Below, one piece after another: positions 2,926-9,693 of a stretch of 22,822 bases of DNA (position 1 is the first letter of the stretch; the number at the start of each line of letters is the position of its first letter). The stretch comes from a virus. The stretch is taken from positions 1 through 22,822 of the IMG/VR virus record IMGVR_UViG_3300037119_001147; one strand, written 5' to 3'. The translations under genes were made by a program, and so were the position numbers. Below the pieces are notes generated by a model. The model made no database searches. It was given only the letters and a program-made list of their open reading frames with translations, and had not been told where the DNA came from.

Positions 2926-3327
2926 ATGGCATTCGGTGTAGCAACAGTTCTTACGAACAAAGGTAAGGCGTTATTCGCAGATCGTGCTAGAGTAACTCCA
3001 GGTACATATTCAAACGCGCCCCGTTACATTGGAATTGGAACGGGTGCTACCGGAGCAGCTCGCACGGCAGTAGCAGCAGATACAGCATTATCCACAGAAG
3101 TAGAAACTCGTTCTGCGGGTACTGAATCTACTGTTACAACAACTCAGACAGGTGACACGTATCAGTCGCAAGGCACTATTTCTATTACTGGTACACGTGC
3201 AGTAGATGAGTCTGGTTTATTTGATGCTTCCACTACAGGGAACATGATTACGTCTGCAACTCTAAACGTAATCAACCTCCTGAACGGAGACTCACTACAG
3301 CTTACGTGGAAGGTGCAGATCACCTAA
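2926..3327 (+). CDS. Small beta-rich virion structural protein (133 aa)
   Basis: The N-terminus reads MAFGVATVLTNKGKALFADR. It is followed by PRYIGIGTGATGAARTAVAAD-type sequence at residues about 33-55, then a Thr-rich beta segment (TVTTTQTGDTYQSQGTISIT). It finishes with VDESGLFDAST and NLLNGDSLQLTWKVQIT. This pattern (IGIGTG, DTALSTEV, SGLFDA, final GDSLQ.TWKV) is shared by a group of small phage virion proteins, usually tail-fibre or collar associated and built as a beta-sandwich. The gene follows a GGAAAGG ribosome-binding site and ends just before a strong hairpin, closing this first transcription block. The structural assignment is fairly sure; the exact place in the virion is not. Confidence 0.6.
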   Translation: MAFGVATVLTNKGKALFADRARVTPGTYSNAPRYIGIGTGATGAARTAVAADTALSTEVETRSAGTESTVTTTQTGDTYQSQGTISITGTRAVDESGLFDASTTGNMITSATLNVINLLNGDSLQLTWKVQIT

Positions 3328-3337
3328 TGGCTCATTT

Positions 3338-3373
3338 GAAATAGCACCTAGTAATTCTGCTAGGTGCTATTTC
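3338..3373 (+). terminator. Perfect 14-bp hairpin between structural gene and sigma-like gene
   Basis: GAAATAGCACCTAG (3338-3351) and CTAGGTGCTATTTC (3360-3373) form a perfect 14-bp stem, 15 bp with the flanking T-A pair, around an 8-nt loop. It lies 11 nt after the stop of the preceding gene. There is no long T-run after it, so termination may be partial. The 3' arm holds AGGTG, the only Shine-Dalgarno-like sequence for an ATG at 3377; the hairpin may therefore also limit translation from that start. Confidence 0.6.
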
Positions 3374-3376
3374 ATT

Positions 3377-3940
3377 ATGAGGGGGAAAAGGTGGTGCCGT
3401 CGATTGGTTTCTGATGAACAACTCGTCGAAGATGGTAAGAGAGTATTCAAAGACTTAAAAAGAAAAATGGATATTGGTCCAGAAGATCAAGAAGATGTTC
3501 AACAAGAAATTTACATTGATCTTCTAAAGGCAAGAAAGAGATTTGATCCTACCAAGAGTAGCTGGCTGCATTTCGTTTGGGTAACTGCAACCTTTACAGT
3601 AAGAAGCTATTTTAGAGATTATCCACGCGCCGGCGTTAAATGGTTAAGATCAGAAAAAGAAAGTTCATACAATGTACCTTTAGATGATCTAGTAGAAGTA
3701 CCTGTTACACACGATGAACATGAATACCTTACTATCATAGATAGTGTTAAAGATTTCTCTCCTATAGAATGCAGCATCGTGATAATGACATTAGCGGGCT
3801 ACTTACCCAGAGAGATCGCAAATTATCTAGGTATCGGAGAAAGCTTCATATACCATCGTATCGCAAACTTACGGATCAAGAGTTCTCCGTCCTTTTCTTT
3901 GCATCATTCGGTTACACAGCAATTGAAACAGGCGGCATAA
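3377..3940 (+). CDS. Sigma-70-like phage transcription factor
   Basis: The protein (187 aa from ATG 3377) has the layout of a small, ECF-like sigma factor. A region 2-like segment lies at residues about 36-84 (DQEDVQQEIYIDLLKARKRFDP, SSWLHFVWVTATFTVRSYFRDYPR). A region 4-like helix-turn-helix lies at residues about 127-168 (FSPIECSIVIMTLAG, then PREIANYLGIGESFIYHRI). Such proteins redirect host RNA polymerase to specific promoters, and the repeated 12-mer in this window is an obvious candidate target. The ATG at 3377 sits right on the hairpin and has a poor ribosome-binding site. TTG at 3404, 9 nt after AAGGTGG, is a credible alternative that removes the odd MRGKRWCRR start. The last 60 or so nucleotides overlap, in another frame, the HTH of the next gene. 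An annotation as a generic HTH protein is the main alternative. Confidence 0.75.
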   Translation: MRGKRWCRRLVSDEQLVEDGKRVFKDLKRKMDIGPEDQEDVQQEIYIDLLKARKRFDPTKSSWLHFVWVTATFTVRSYFRDYPRAGVKWLRSEKESSYNVPLDDLVEVPVTHDEHEYLTIIDSVKDFSPIECSIVIMTLAGYLPREIANYLGIGESFIYHRIANLRIKSSPSFSLHHSVTQQLKQAA

Positions 3941-4053
3941 TCTTTCTATCTGAGCAAACTGTTAAATCCTACCGTAAGAGTATTGCTCTCAAGCTCGAGA
4001 CTAAGAGTATTACTCATTCAGTAGCTTTTGCTCTACGAAACGATTGGATATAA
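3769..4053 (+). CDS. LuxR/GerE-type HTH protein overlapping the sigma-like gene
   Basis: Residues about 32-94 match the LuxR/GerE DNA-binding domain: KLTDQEFSVLFFASFGYTAI, then LSEQTVKSYRKSIALKLETKS and a closing AFALRNDWI. Such domains bind promoter DNA as dimers. The frame is -1 relative to the sigma-like gene and overlaps it by 172 nt. The HTH itself begins while the sigma-like HTH is still being encoded. ATG 3769 is the only ordinary start before the domain but has no clear Shine-Dalgarno sequence. Expression could be by internal start, translational coupling or a -1 frameshift giving a sigma2-HTH-HTH fusion, but I see no canonical slippery heptamer. A sequencing error is less likely, as both HTH motifs look whole. 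The stop abuts the next ATG (TAAATG). Confidence 0.6.
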   Translation: MQHRDNDISGLLTQRDRKLSRYRRKLHIPSYRKLTDQEFSVLFFASFGYTAIETGGIIFLSEQTVKSYRKSIALKLETKSITHSVAFALRNDWI

Positions 4054-5067
4054 ATGGACTTTACAGGATTAGATGCTCAAGTAGCTAAGTTTCGAAAAGC
4101 ATCACCAAATATTGCTAGTGCTTTTGATGAAGTAAAGAAACTCTTTAATTCATTAGAAGAACCTATTACTGCGCCGGCGAAGTATTTCGATAACTCTCCT
4201 AAGCCTTTTGTTCCTAATCGTGTAATTCAGTGTGGAACACGACAAGCTTTCGATACAGCATTTAACAGCATTGTAAATGGCGACCGTATTAATGCTTATG
4301 GATTTAACTATCCTGGCCAGTGGAACATGCATAAGCAACTCACTGGTAGAGCACAAATCTACTTTGCTCCTGATGTTAAGTTCGTAGGTGGTGGATCATA
4401 TGACCTAAATGCTGTTTGGGTTAAAGCAAGAGGACTAGAGCTATTTGGCGGTTCTCTGTATAATCCTACTGGTCACGGTTTGCTGTTTTATGTTAGTGCT
4501 GGTGTTGTTTGGCATGGACTTAAGATTGGTGTTGATGGAAAGATTGGTGGAACTGGCTTACGTGTGTTAGGTGTGGAGGGTAATATAACAAACCTGAATT
4601 TGGAGTATGAGACAACTAACTGCGGACACGACTTATCTCTAGATGCACACGGACGAGTTGGTGGAGAACCGGGAACAGGTGTGCATCCTTCATATATTGG
4701 TGGAGGTAGTGGACCTTATGAAACTACTGATTCTATGTTTGTTATTAATTCCCATGATTGTGCTACTGGCTCTAACCAAATTGGTCCGTTTGCTAAACGA
4801 AACAAGTTTGACATTCGAGCCAAGAACCTAACTTTTGATGCTACACGTCAGACAGCAGGTAACGCTGCTCAAATCTTTGGAGATCAAATCTCAGAACTTG
4901 ATATTTGGGTAGAAGCTGACAACGTAGCTCAAGTAGTTAGAGCTAATGGTAACTTTGTTGGTCCAGTAAGAGTTAATCGTGGACGTAGTGTAAACGTTCG
5001 CGGTGCTTACGATTCTGCTGCAAAATACTATCCTCATCCAAAAGTAGCTTACATAGACTGCACCTAA
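4054..5067 (+). CDS. Beta-helix tailspike- or tail-fibre-like protein
   Basis: A 337-residue protein. A helical N-terminal part (about 1-40, FTGLDAQVAKFRKASPNIASAFDEVKKL) would suit attachment or trimerisation. From about residue 65 there is a series of short beta segments rich in Gly, Asn and Val (INAYGFNYPGQW, AQIYFAPDVKFVGGGSYDL, LELFGGSLYNPTGHGLLFY, VVWHGLKIGVDG, NITNLNLEYETTNCGHDLSL). This is the pattern of a right-handed parallel beta-helix (pectate-lyase-like). In phages this fold is typical of tailspikes that bind or degrade surface polysaccharide. No catalytic residues can be assigned safely. The ATG abuts the stop of the LuxR-type gene, and a lectin-like gene follows 10 nt later. 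The short length for a spike and absence of a C-terminal trimer domain suggest it works with the following proteins. Confidence 0.6.
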   Translation: MDFTGLDAQVAKFRKASPNIASAFDEVKKLFNSLEEPITAPAKYFDNSPKPFVPNRVIQCGTRQAFDTAFNSIVNGDRINAYGFNYPGQWNMHKQLTGRAQIYFAPDVKFVGGGSYDLNAVWVKARGLELFGGSLYNPTGHGLLFYVSAGVVWHGLKIGVDGKIGGTGLRVLGVEGNITNLNLEYETTNCGHDLSLDAHGRVGGEPGTGVHPSYIGGGSGPYETTDSMFVINSHDCATGSNQIGPFAKRNKFDIRAKNLTFDATRQTAGNAAQIFGDQISELDIWVEADNVAQVVRANGNFVGPVRVNRGRSVNVRGAYDSAAKYYPHPKVAYIDCT

Positions 5068-5824: not shown

Positions 5825-6724
5825 GTGCATAACCTTCTGACTACATCTACCGACCTGCTAAGGGTCGTAACAGGATCGGCAGCAGACCTAGACTGCATTG
5901 TTTCATTCATCGAATATACAAATGCTTCTCCCCCGGTACTTGATGCAATGGATACACAGTTCACGAATATTTCGACTGCAACTACTACAACAATTCTTGG
6001 AGCACCTTCATCGGGTTCAGATCGTCGTCGTATCAAGTCGGTGTCGATTGTCAATACACATGCATCAGTCTCTACTACGTGTCGTGTTGTCATTGAACGA
6101 ACTGGCCCTGTACTGTGGGACATGTTCAATACAGTTACTCTGGCTCCTGGCGAGTCGCTGACATTCACAGAAGGTATCGGCTGGTTCTATAACAGAACTG
6201 CACCTACCAATCTTGCTACTGGTGTTGCTACTACTGCACAGATTGCATCACATTCCGCAGATACTTATTATCTTGGAATGGCAACTACGTACAACGGAGT
6301 TACCCGGCTACGTGCAGGTACGTTCTTCCGTTGGGCATTTCGTGCAAACAAGGGTGGTGGTACTGCTACTCCTACTTACATCATTCGTTATGGAACAGCA
6401 GGAACCACGGCAGATACAGCTCGTGTTACTTTAACAGGTGCAGCACAGACAGCGGTAGCAGATGAAGCTTATTTTATTATTGAGGCTGGTTTCCGTGTTA
6501 TTGGTTCATCAGCAGTTTTGGTAGCACATCACTTGCTTTCTCACCGTTTAGGAACAACTGGTTTCAGTGTTACTGCTGCAAACGTTGCAATGACTCCAGT
6601 TGTATCAGGTACGTTCGACTCAGGTGTTGCAGGAAGTATTATTGGATTAAGTGTTAACCCTGGTGCTTCTGGCGCATGGGTTACAGACCTAGTTACACTT
6701 GACGGCGTAAACATGGTGATGTAG
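5825..6724 (+). CDS. Beta-rich minor tail or fibre protein (299 aa)
   Basis: It starts with GTG directly after the preceding stop. Residues about 70-125 form an Ig-like beta pattern often seen in virion proteins: RIKSVSIVNTH, TCRVVIERTG, NTVTLAPGESLTFTEG, then GWFYN. The C-terminal part (about 130-299) is a second beta-rich domain with DTYYLGMATTYNGVTRLRAG and RANKGGGTATPTYIIRYGTAG, ending in TDLVTLDGVNMVM. No signal peptide or membrane segment is present. The stop TAG shares its last base with the GTG of the next gene, implying translational coupling with the giant fibre. Most likely a minor tail or receptor-binding component; no named family is recognised. Confidence 0.6.
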   Translation: MHNLLTTSTDLLRVVTGSAADLDCIVSFIEYTNASPPVLDAMDTQFTNISTATTTTILGAPSSGSDRRRIKSVSIVNTHASVSTTCRVVIERTGPVLWDMFNTVTLAPGESLTFTEGIGWFYNRTAPTNLATGVATTAQIASHSADTYYLGMATTYNGVTRLRAGTFFRWAFRANKGGGTATPTYIIRYGTAGTTADTARVTLTGAAQTAVADEAYFIIEAGFRVIGSSAVLVAHHLLSHRLGTTGFSVTAANVAMTPVVSGTFDSGVAGSIIGLSVNPGASGAWVTDLVTLDGVNMVM

Positions 6725-9693
6725 TGAATTTTGATTATGAATTCGAGAGTGCTTATGGTGTTCCTGGTTGGCTTGATTTAGACTACTCGCCAGTAACAGG
6801 CACTTTGGAAACTGCCACTCTTAGTGCAACAGCTACAGGTACTGCAACTTTAGTTAGATCACCAACTAAAGTATTAATTGCTGTAGCTGTTGCTGTTGCT
6901 ACCTTTATTCGTGCAGTATCTATTATTCGTGCAGCAACAGGTTTAGCAGTTCCAAAACTAATCCGTAGTATTGCTAGAACCTACTCAGTTGTAGGAACTG
7001 GTGTAGCTGTATTAGTACGTACTCCACAAAGAATCTTATCTGCTACAGGAAGCGGAACTGCTACCTTAATTAGATCACCTACTAAGGTACTTAGTGTTGT
7101 TAGTACAGGAGTAGTATCACTTATTAGAGCACCTAGCAAAGTATTCTTACGTACTGCTACTGCTGTACCTGTTTTACTGAAATCTCCTATTAGAGCATTT
7201 GTTGTAGTAGGTACTGGTGCTGTTACACTAGTACGTGCTCCCAGCAAAGTTTTCTTTGTTGGTGGAATTAGTTACGAACAGGATGCACTAACTTATACAC
7301 CCAAAGCATTTTGGCCATTACAGGAAGCTTCTGGTAATCCACAAGATGTATCAGGTAATGGTAACCATTTTACCTCAGTAGTAGGTTCACCTACTTATCA
7401 GCAGCCTGGAGTAATGGGAACATATGCAGTTCTCTTAAACGGGGGAGCTGGCTTCTCGCGTTCTTCAGTTGTTTCTACAGTTGTTGATAATCTAACTATT
7501 GAAATTGTTGTTAATGTAACTGTCGTTACTGTTAACGATCAACGTATTTTCTATATGGGTAATGGTGGGTCAAGTGGATATGGAATTCTAGTAGATGTAG
7601 ACGGCGGATTCCGTCTACTATTAGGTGGAGTAGCTTTCGGAGCTAAAAGCTTTGCGTTAACTTCTGATGCTTTACTTCATGTTGTGCGTGAAGCTGGAAC
7701 GTGGAAATACTATGTTAATGGTTCACTTGCACATGGTAATGCAAGCACTTCTGCACCTAATGCTCCTTCTGGAACAGTTGATGTTGGTGATGGATCAATT
7801 CAGCAGGAAGTATCTTGGCTTGCATTTTATGAACAAGCATTTGATTCAAGTGAAGTAGCTGCTCGTTATGCTGCAATGTCAGCTCCTGGAGGAGTTCTCG
7901 CAGTTCCTTCATTAATCAGAACTCCCACAAAAGTTCTTGGGGCTATTGGTACAGGATTAGGTTCACTTGTTAGATCACCTAGTAAAATTCTTACAGCGAT
8001 TGCAATTGCAGTTCCTACAATTGTTCGTTCTGCATCTAGAACATTATCTGTTGTAGGAACTGGCACAGCTACTTTAATTAGAAATCCGACAAGAGTTTTG
8101 GCGGCTATTGGTTCTGCTGTCGTTACTCTAACTACACAGGTTGTTCAAAATGTAACTCTTAGTGCTATTGGTACTGGTGTGGCGTCTTTAGTTAGGGCTC
8201 CCGCGAAAATTCTTTCAACCTTAGGAACTGGAATTGTCACAATCATCAGATCGCCTTCTAGAACTCTTACCGCAAGTGCAACAGGAATTGCAACACTTGT
8301 TAGATCACTTTCACGAACTCTCTCTACAACAGCAATTGCAATTGCTACAATTACTCGTAGTCCGAGTAGAACCTTAAGTGTTATAGGAACTGGTATTGCT
8401 ACATTAGTTCGTAGTGCAACAAAAATTCTATTAGCAACAGGAGCCGGCGTTGCTACATTAGTAAGATCACCAACAAAGGTTCTTTTAGCTACAGCTACAA
8501 GTGTTGCAAGTATTGTTCGATCTGTTTCAATTACTTTAAGAGCAACTGCTGTAGGAGTTGCTACTCTCACAACAGTTAAAGTTATCCTTGCATCCTTTAC
8601 TGCAATTGGAACGGGAGTAGCATCATTAGTAAGATCACCACAACGATTACTATTAGCAACTGGTACAGGAATTTCTACATTAGTACGTTCAGTCCTGAAA
8701 AATCTAAATGCAATTGGAACTGGATTAGCTTCTGTTATTCGTTATGTGAGTAAGGTGTTTGGAGCAATTGGAACTGGTATCGCAGATGTTACAACAACTG
8801 GAGCTACACAAGTTGCTCTTTCAGCAATTGGTACAGCAGTACCGAAATTAGTCAAAAATCCTCAAATTATCCTGTCAACCCTCGGCTCGGGAGTGGCGTC
8901 CGTTGTACGCGCTATATATACTGCGTGTCTAGCTACGGGAATCGGCGTGTCTACAGTGATTCGCTACCCTGCTCGTACCTTACTAGCCACAGGAGCAGGA
9001 GTAGCAACTGTAACCACATTAAAAGTAATCCTACAAACTCTAAGTGCAACTGGAACAAGCATCGCAACTTTAGTAAGAGGCCCAATCAAGACACTATCTG
9101 CGATTGGCACATCATCAGCTTCTATTAACAGAAGCGTGAGTAGAGTATTAGGAGCAATTGCTGTATGTTCGTCATTCTTGGTGAAAAGACCTACGCGCGT
9201 GTTGCAGGCAATTGCCACAACGGTGTCAATGCTCACCACATCGAGATTATTGCAAGCCGTCTTAACTACTTCTGGCTCGGCAGTTGCTACTATTTTAAGG
9301 TCACCAACTAAGGTCCTAATTGGAGTAGGAAGTGGAATTAGTACAATCGCAAGGATTGTATCAACTTCATACAATGCGACAGGAACGGCGATTGTTACTT
9401 TCACAAGGAACGCAGCTACTTCTGTTGAGTTCCTCGTTACCGGGATTCTTCTACCCAAGCTTAATGTTAGACCATCAAGAATCCTACAAGCAGTTGCAAC
9501 TGGACTTGCATCAGTAACCTCAGTTGTTCAAGGATTCGCAGGATATGTAGATGCGACTGGACGAGCTTTTGCAGCATGGTTAGCAGAAGCAGAACAACAG
9601 TGGCATGCTCATCCACTTCACGGATATATTGGAGAAGCTATAGAACAGTTTAAGGGTATTGCGATGAAACCATTTAGAAAGGACGATTCGTGA
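6724..9693 (+). CDS. Giant 18-residue-repeat fibre protein with inserted LamG domain
   Basis: A 989-residue protein unlike its neighbours. After a 32-residue acidic N-terminus come eight consecutive 18-residue units (33-176), of consensus about LSAIGTGVATLVRSPTKV. A LamG-like lectin domain follows at residues about 182-388 (AFWPLQEASGNPQDVSGNGN near its start; WLAFYEQAFDSSEVAARY near its end). Then come about 28 more units (405-920) and a helical 50-residue tail. The units alternate two beta-like strands with GTG and SPTK turns, which suggests a fibrous beta-solenoid or triple beta-spiral shaft carrying a lectin. From residue 605 every fourth unit is 20 residues long, lacks the Arg and carries a TT pair, giving a 74-residue super-period. 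GTG start overlaps the preceding stop. Likely a tail fibre shaft; the fold is inferred. Confidence 0.7.
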   Translation: MNFDYEFESAYGVPGWLDLDYSPVTGTLETATLSATATGTATLVRSPTKVLIAVAVAVATFIRAVSIIRAATGLAVPKLIRSIARTYSVVGTGVAVLVRTPQRILSATGSGTATLIRSPTKVLSVVSTGVVSLIRAPSKVFLRTATAVPVLLKSPIRAFVVVGTGAVTLVRAPSKVFFVGGISYEQDALTYTPKAFWPLQEASGNPQDVSGNGNHFTSVVGSPTYQQPGVMGTYAVLLNGGAGFSRSSVVSTVVDNLTIEIVVNVTVVTVNDQRIFYMGNGGSSGYGILVDVDGGFRLLLGGVAFGAKSFALTSDALLHVVREAGTWKYYVNGSLAHGNASTSAPNAPSGTVDVGDGSIQQEVSWLAFYEQAFDSSEVAARYAAMSAPGGVLAVPSLIRTPTKVLGAIGTGLGSLVRSPSKILTAIAIAVPTIVRSASRTLSVVGTGTATLIRNPTRVLAAIGSAVVTLTTQVVQNVTLSAIGTGVASLVRAPAKILSTLGTGIVTIIRSPSRTLTASATGIATLVRSLSRTLSTTAIAIATITRSPSRTLSVIGTGIATLVRSATKILLATGAGVATLVRSPTKVLLATATSVASIVRSVSITLRATAVGVATLTTVKVILASFTAIGTGVASLVRSPQRLLLATGTGISTLVRSVLKNLNAIGTGLASVIRYVSKVFGAIGTGIADVTTTGATQVALSAIGTAVPKLVKNPQIILSTLGSGVASVVRAIYTACLATGIGVSTVIRYPARTLLATGAGVATVTTLKVILQTLSATGTSIATLVRGPIKTLSAIGTSSASINRSVSRVLGAIAVCSSFLVKRPTRVLQAIATTVSMLTTSRLLQAVLTTSGSAVATILRSPTKVLIGVGSGISTIARIVSTSYNATGTAIVTFTRNAATSVEFLVTGILLPKLNVRPSRILQAVATGLASVTSVVQGFAGYVDATGRAFAAWLAEAEQQWHAHPLHGYIGEAIEQFKGIAMKPFRKDDS
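6820..9531 (+). repeat. Protein-level 18-residue (54-nt) tandem repeats in two blocks
   Basis: Block 1 covers 6820-7251 (eight units). Block 2 covers about 7888-9531 (partial first and last units and 28 full ones). The lectin-coding stretch 7267-7887 separates them. DNA copies have diverged through synonymous change, so the repeat is clear in protein but not as long identical DNA. Twenty-residue units begin at residues 459, 605, 679, 753, 827 and 901; the last five are exactly 74 residues apart. Confidence 0.8.

Follow-up and report, generated by a model that had tools for sequence, protein, structure and literature searches.

A sigma factor-like gene overlapping a GerE/LuxR-type gene in a tailed phage: a likely two-gene regulatory cassette

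The phage genome segment

The stretch of tailed-phage DNA analyzed here, hereinafter the window, comprises 22.8 kb and forms a virus record in which the small and large terminase, portal, major head and tail genes are recognized by comparison with PHROG. Between the small- and large-terminase genes, some 6 kb ahead of the large one, lies a pair of genes in overlapping reading frames, the first encoding a sigma factor-like protein and the second, in the -1 frame, a LuxR/GerE-type helix-turn-helix (HTH) protein; both genes, their domains and the inverted repeat described below are on the plus strand. The GC content shows no anomaly at this pair, and no anti-sigma gene was recognized near the sigma-like gene.

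The gene immediately upstream (2926-3324) belongs to PHROG 5417 and is 89-91% identical in two related loci, L002 and L003, as against 73-77% for the terminase, and its next genes in these loci are unrelated. This pattern suggests either strong conservation or recent exchange of this gene. Further downstream, a 989-residue ORF (6724-9693) consists mostly of degenerate repeats of the GTGVATLVRSP type, and repeat proteins resembling it, albeit of different length, occupy the same position in L002 and several other relatives.

The sigma factor-like gene

The first ORF of the pair (3377-3940, frame 2) is of ECF size and matches both the Pfam domain Sigma70_r2 (PF04542; E 1.3e-7, 31.8 bits against a cut-off of 24, residues 29-81) and PHROG 1740, an RNA polymerase sigma factor family (E 3.3e-10, residues 25-168). 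The region 2 domain (residues 29-81, positions 3461-3619) is also the helix block with the highest pLDDT in the predicted model. The region 4-like HTH (about residues 126-166, positions 3752-3874) falls below the Pfam thresholds when the window protein is searched alone, but is indicated by the PHROG 1740 match, by predicted helices and by the aligned homologue from L003, which matches Sigma70_r4 (E 4.3e-6, 26.6 bits against a cut-off of 24.1), in agreement with the initial annotation, which had assigned to this protein a region 4 HTH of its own. The sigma profile further matches the sigma factor 3mzy in the PDB across both regions (E 7.9e-6), and Foldseek places ECF sigma factors such as CnrH and SigK among the best hits of the model, with a probability of about 1.0 and no E-value below 0.001. 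Judging from these sequence and model comparisons, the protein is a predicted ECF-like sigma factor, with regions 2 and 4 joined by a short linker and no region 3. The predicted fold consists of helices up to about residue 166, and pLDDT is below 50 for residues 167-187, that is, from base 3875; this low-confidence C-terminal tail (3875-3940) is what the sigma frame makes of DNA that codes for GerE. The sigma tails of the L003 and L041 homologues vary in length and sequence.

Two start codons are candidates for this ORF, namely TTG 3404, which is preceded by AAAGGTGGT and has a Shine-Dalgarno (SD) energy of -7.7 kcal/mol, and ATG 3377 (-3.7 kcal/mol), which is located directly 3' of a 15-bp perfect hairpin and is base-paired in the predicted fold. 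Because the SD is stronger at TTG 3404 and ATG 3377 is paired, translation probably starts at the former, with ATG 3377 as the alternative; the resulting N-terminus, MVSDEQLVED, aligns with the L041 sigma protein. The inverted repeat itself (3337-3374; fold z-score -6.1), immediately before the sigma gene, may terminate transcription of the gene upstream or may be involved in the control of sigma translation. A strong hairpin of unrelated sequence occupies the same place before the sigma gene of L003 (3392-3436), and none was found in L041.

The GerE-type gene and the overlap

The second ORF (3769-4053), in a frame that is open from 3751 to 4050 and closed by the stop that follows, encodes a GerE HTH domain (residues 33-88, positions 3865-4032) detected by Pfam with an E-value of 9.8e-10 (38.4 bits, cut-off 23.5), compared with 58.6 and 41.9 bits for the counterparts in L041 and L003, respectively. 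The protein also matches PHROG 3282 (E 1.4e-4), and a PDB profile search retrieves GerE itself (1fse) as well as the DNA-binding domains of response regulators of the LuxR type. The model contains confident helices at residues 36-46, 51-58, 62-75 and 81-90, with confidence setting in at about residue 32 (base 3862), and the codon usage of this frame is coding-like only from about 3870. The stop codon TAA is immediately followed by the ATG (4054) of the next gene, a junction (4051-4056) that suggests coupled translation of the GerE-type gene and its downstream neighbor.

The start of the GerE domain (3865) lies at the end of the sigma fold (about 3874), such that no more than about 3865-3880 is common to both domains. 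This is close to the segment 3853-3880 where the initial annotation had placed a LuxR/GerE HTH overlapping the sigma HTH. According to the models, true double coding involves the last part of the sigma recognition helix followed by the low-confidence sigma tail, with the two folds abutting on the DNA. At the junction, CTTACGGATC (3868-3877), which is identical in L041, specifies LRI in the sigma protein and LTD in the GerE protein, a peptide pair that nearly dictates these ten bases. Farther upstream of the GerE domain, the window and L041 have conserved G-L and R-D-R residues, but these were not accepted as support for the upstream part of the GerE frame, given that the sigma frame imposes the same bases. 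When codons of the sigma segment were replaced by random synonymous ones, with uniform codon choice, the GerE frame remained open across the overlap in 4% (window), 6% (L041) and 1.9% (L003) of the recodings, percentages that are not to be multiplied given that the three loci share descent. The initial annotation had called both options for expressing such an overlap unusual, which is partly right: 84% of the annotated viral gene overlaps are shorter than 50 nt, but one or more overlaps longer than 50 nt are present in 61% of the genomes of dsDNA viruses (PMC7017920).

Conservation of the overlapping pair in related phages

The relatives were obtained solely via the terminase, with a search that yielded 49 loci. 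In L041, the terminase of which is 52% identical to that of the window, both proteins are encoded, with 31% and 40% identity, again in the -1 relation. L003 (terminase 73% identical; the same contig as L058) contains the same -1 pair, which was found by Pfam search and is too divergent to be picked up by BLAST with the window protein. Across the three phages, the paired proteins are about 25-39% identical, residues of regions 2 and 4 are conserved among the sigma proteins and, in L041 and L003 as in the window, the GerE domain begins at the end of sigma region 4. The initial annotation had proposed comparing the frame arrangement in relatives: the two frames are kept in both L041 and L003, and no single continuous frame was seen.

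The -1 overlap represents a genuine pair of genes rather than an artifact of sequencing, and both accident and assembly error are excluded by the recurrence of the overlap with recognizable GerE domains. The window being a metagenome contig, an error of sequencing or assembly could, in principle, have split one gene, but this is extremely unlikely because two independent contigs, obtained from metagenomes other than that of the window, show the same frame relation; furthermore, both frames continue past the junction, as separate proteins should. Decay of the sigma gene, with the GerE-type gene as the sole functional partner and the overlap as a relic, would fit the sub-threshold region 4 of the window protein, the lack of the sigma gene in most relatives and the drop of the sigma codon scores toward the 3' end. 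However, decay would leave stops or frameshifts, whereas the sigma frame is intact in three highly divergent phages with conserved residues in both regions, so that we consider this explanation improbable.

Some of the relatives encode the second protein alone. L111 carries a GerE-type gene (4363-4698; E 1.2e-17) whose own ATG (4363) lies in an ATGA junction, whereas the match in L011 is weaker (4575-4970; GerE E 7.8e-4); both genes are located about 5-6 kb before the terminase, as in the window, and no sigma gene was detected at the corresponding place in either locus. An extended set of terminase loci (L097-L171) yielded no further addition besides L111. In Rhizobium and Vibrio phages, too, annotated GerE-type genes occur on their own, with lengths of about 70-100 residues. 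The loci L002, L057 and L059-L069 share with the window the gene upstream of the cassette and lack the cassette itself.

Beyond the terminase relatives, no matches were obtained in the viral collection by single-sequence search with the sigma-like or the GerE protein, or in the genome collection scanned with the sigma alignment; none of the 80 loci retrieved from the genome collection with the terminase alignment contains the pair, and no close sigma homologue was found among GenBank phages. Unannotated loci from Listeria, Staphylococcus and Enterococcus were set aside as full-length response regulators. Sinorhizobium phage AP-16-3 (L073) encodes two consecutive sigma-like genes (1983-2989) that overlap by 4 nt, both with Sigma70_r2 and annotated as hypothetical.

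Translation of the GerE-type protein

The pair likely gives rise to two separate proteins, the sigma factor and a GerE protein produced by internal initiation within the sigma gene. In L003, the GerE frame is interrupted by an in-frame stop (3958-3960) only 27 nt before the domain (near 3988), followed by ATG 3967, 21 nt before the domain; in L041, the candidate ATG (4377) is about 81 nt upstream of the domain and in the window, about 96 nt (ATG 3769, the only standard start in this frame). Internal initiation is favored because the GerE-type gene occurs by itself in other phages and, in L003, hardly any space is available for another route.

The SD energies at these ATGs are -1.0 (window), -5.1 (L041, with long spacing) and -3.0 kcal/mol (L003), against a background median of -2.6 kcal/mol for all ATGs in the window. 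Thus, ATG 3769 is indeed without a ribosome-binding site, as originally observed; the recognized genes of the window span SD energies from 0 to -11.8 kcal/mol, so that some of them use no SD. The residues added by a start at ATG 3769 have pLDDT values of 52-58; these low values, the weak SDs of L041 and L003, the unequal start positions in the three phages and the late onset of coding-like codon usage in the window count against the main reading. As a variant of the main reading, the protein could start at ATA 3850, which follows GGAG (3836-3852; SD -6.6 kcal/mol, gap 9), a far stronger site than that at ATG 3769. The domain would then begin after 5 residues, producing a short protein close to those of L003 and the free-standing homologues, and residues 1-30 of the ATG-3769 version are of low pLDDT. 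Nevertheless, ATA is a very rare start codon, no counterpart codon is found behind the GGGAAGG motif of L041, and the GGAG also codes for sigma residues, so that the motif may be accidental; this variant appears conceivable but unlikely.

The initial annotation had left the choice between an internal start and a frameshift-generated fusion; the L003 stop and ATG and the lone gene in L111 argue for the former, and the latter is not supported, given that a slippery heptamer X XXY YYZ is absent in the overlaps of the window, L041 and L003. A programmed -1 frameshift would join sigma regions 2 and 4 to GerE, with the sigma-only protein as the unshifted product, and would account for the identical -1 relation across the three phages, for the sigma and GerE domains abutting without a linker, and for the variable lengths of the sigma tails, as expected of unshifted leftovers. 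There are weak non-classical candidates for the shift site, AAACTTA (window 3865) and GGGAAGG (L041 4434), but these are at different places, and L003 lacks even a relaxed one. Moreover, there is no strong downstream structure (fold z-scores -1.25, 0.76 and -0.21), the shift in L003 would be confined to the stretch of about 27 nt between the stop and the domain, and related phages carry free-standing GerE-type genes, all of which leaves programmed frameshifting with a low probability. An unconventional -1 recoding without a classical slippery site, with both plain sigma and a sigma-GerE fusion made from one gene, is likewise quite improbable; if true, it would provide a sigma factor that carries its own second promoter-binding domain beside the plain sigma. 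Transcriptional slippage was judged unlikely, the overlap being devoid of long homopolymer runs, and stop-codon recoding is not needed, both frames being open under the standard code. Both domains, the overlap, its recurrence in three distant phages and a free-standing copy of the second gene in a related phage are thus directly observed; we infer that the pair is translated as two proteins, with ATG 3769 and ATA 3850 as candidate GerE starts in the window, and that it has the regulatory role outlined below.

Possible role and comparison with known systems

It is established for these families that two-domain sigma factors recruit RNA polymerase and that GerE-type domains occurring on their own bind promoters as dimers. 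The small phage sigma factor, with regions 2 and 4, should direct the host RNA polymerase to phage promoters; ribosomes initiating within the sigma gene would yield, as a product distinct from sigma, a minimal DNA-binding protein of the GerE/LuxR type with about 65-95 residues, and this protein probably binds beside the sigma-dependent promoters and tunes them, similarly to GerE acting with sigma-K in Bacillus, where both are part of the cascade that operates in the mother cell during sporulation (PMC517825). By analogy, the cassette is a probable combination of a phage sigma factor and a GerE-like co-regulator acting on the host RNA polymerase. The conserved out-of-frame overlap ties the two partners together, and a single mRNA segment could fix both their stoichiometry and their joint inheritance. 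The overlap also offers a natural test of a start codon working within another reading frame. Gene prediction programs that are restricted to short overlaps or require an SD may miss or truncate the GerE-type gene, so that such pairs could be under-reported; a literature search of partial coverage found no description of an overlapping sigma/GerE pair.

The individual components have known counterparts. ECF sigma factors and the members of PHROG 1740 and PHROG 351 likewise consist of region 2, a linker and region 4, with about 180-190 residues, but the window protein differs in its degenerate region 4, in the overlap of its 3' end with a -1-frame gene and in having no recognized anti-sigma gene nearby. 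Bacillus subtilis GerE and PHROG 3282 resemble the second protein in consisting of one HTH domain and lacking a receiver domain; unlike B. subtilis GerE, the gene described here is phage-encoded and overlaps the adjacent sigma gene, with which it would act jointly. The sigma factors of Bacillota phages are similarly supplied by the phage to the host RNA polymerase (PMC9429907); in the present case, a GerE-type partner is added. Finally, long same-strand overlaps of dsDNA phage genes (PMC7017920) also are terminal, exceed 50 nt and involve neighboring genes, whereas here both partners are predicted transcription proteins that bind DNA, and the overlap persists at a protein identity of about 25-39%.
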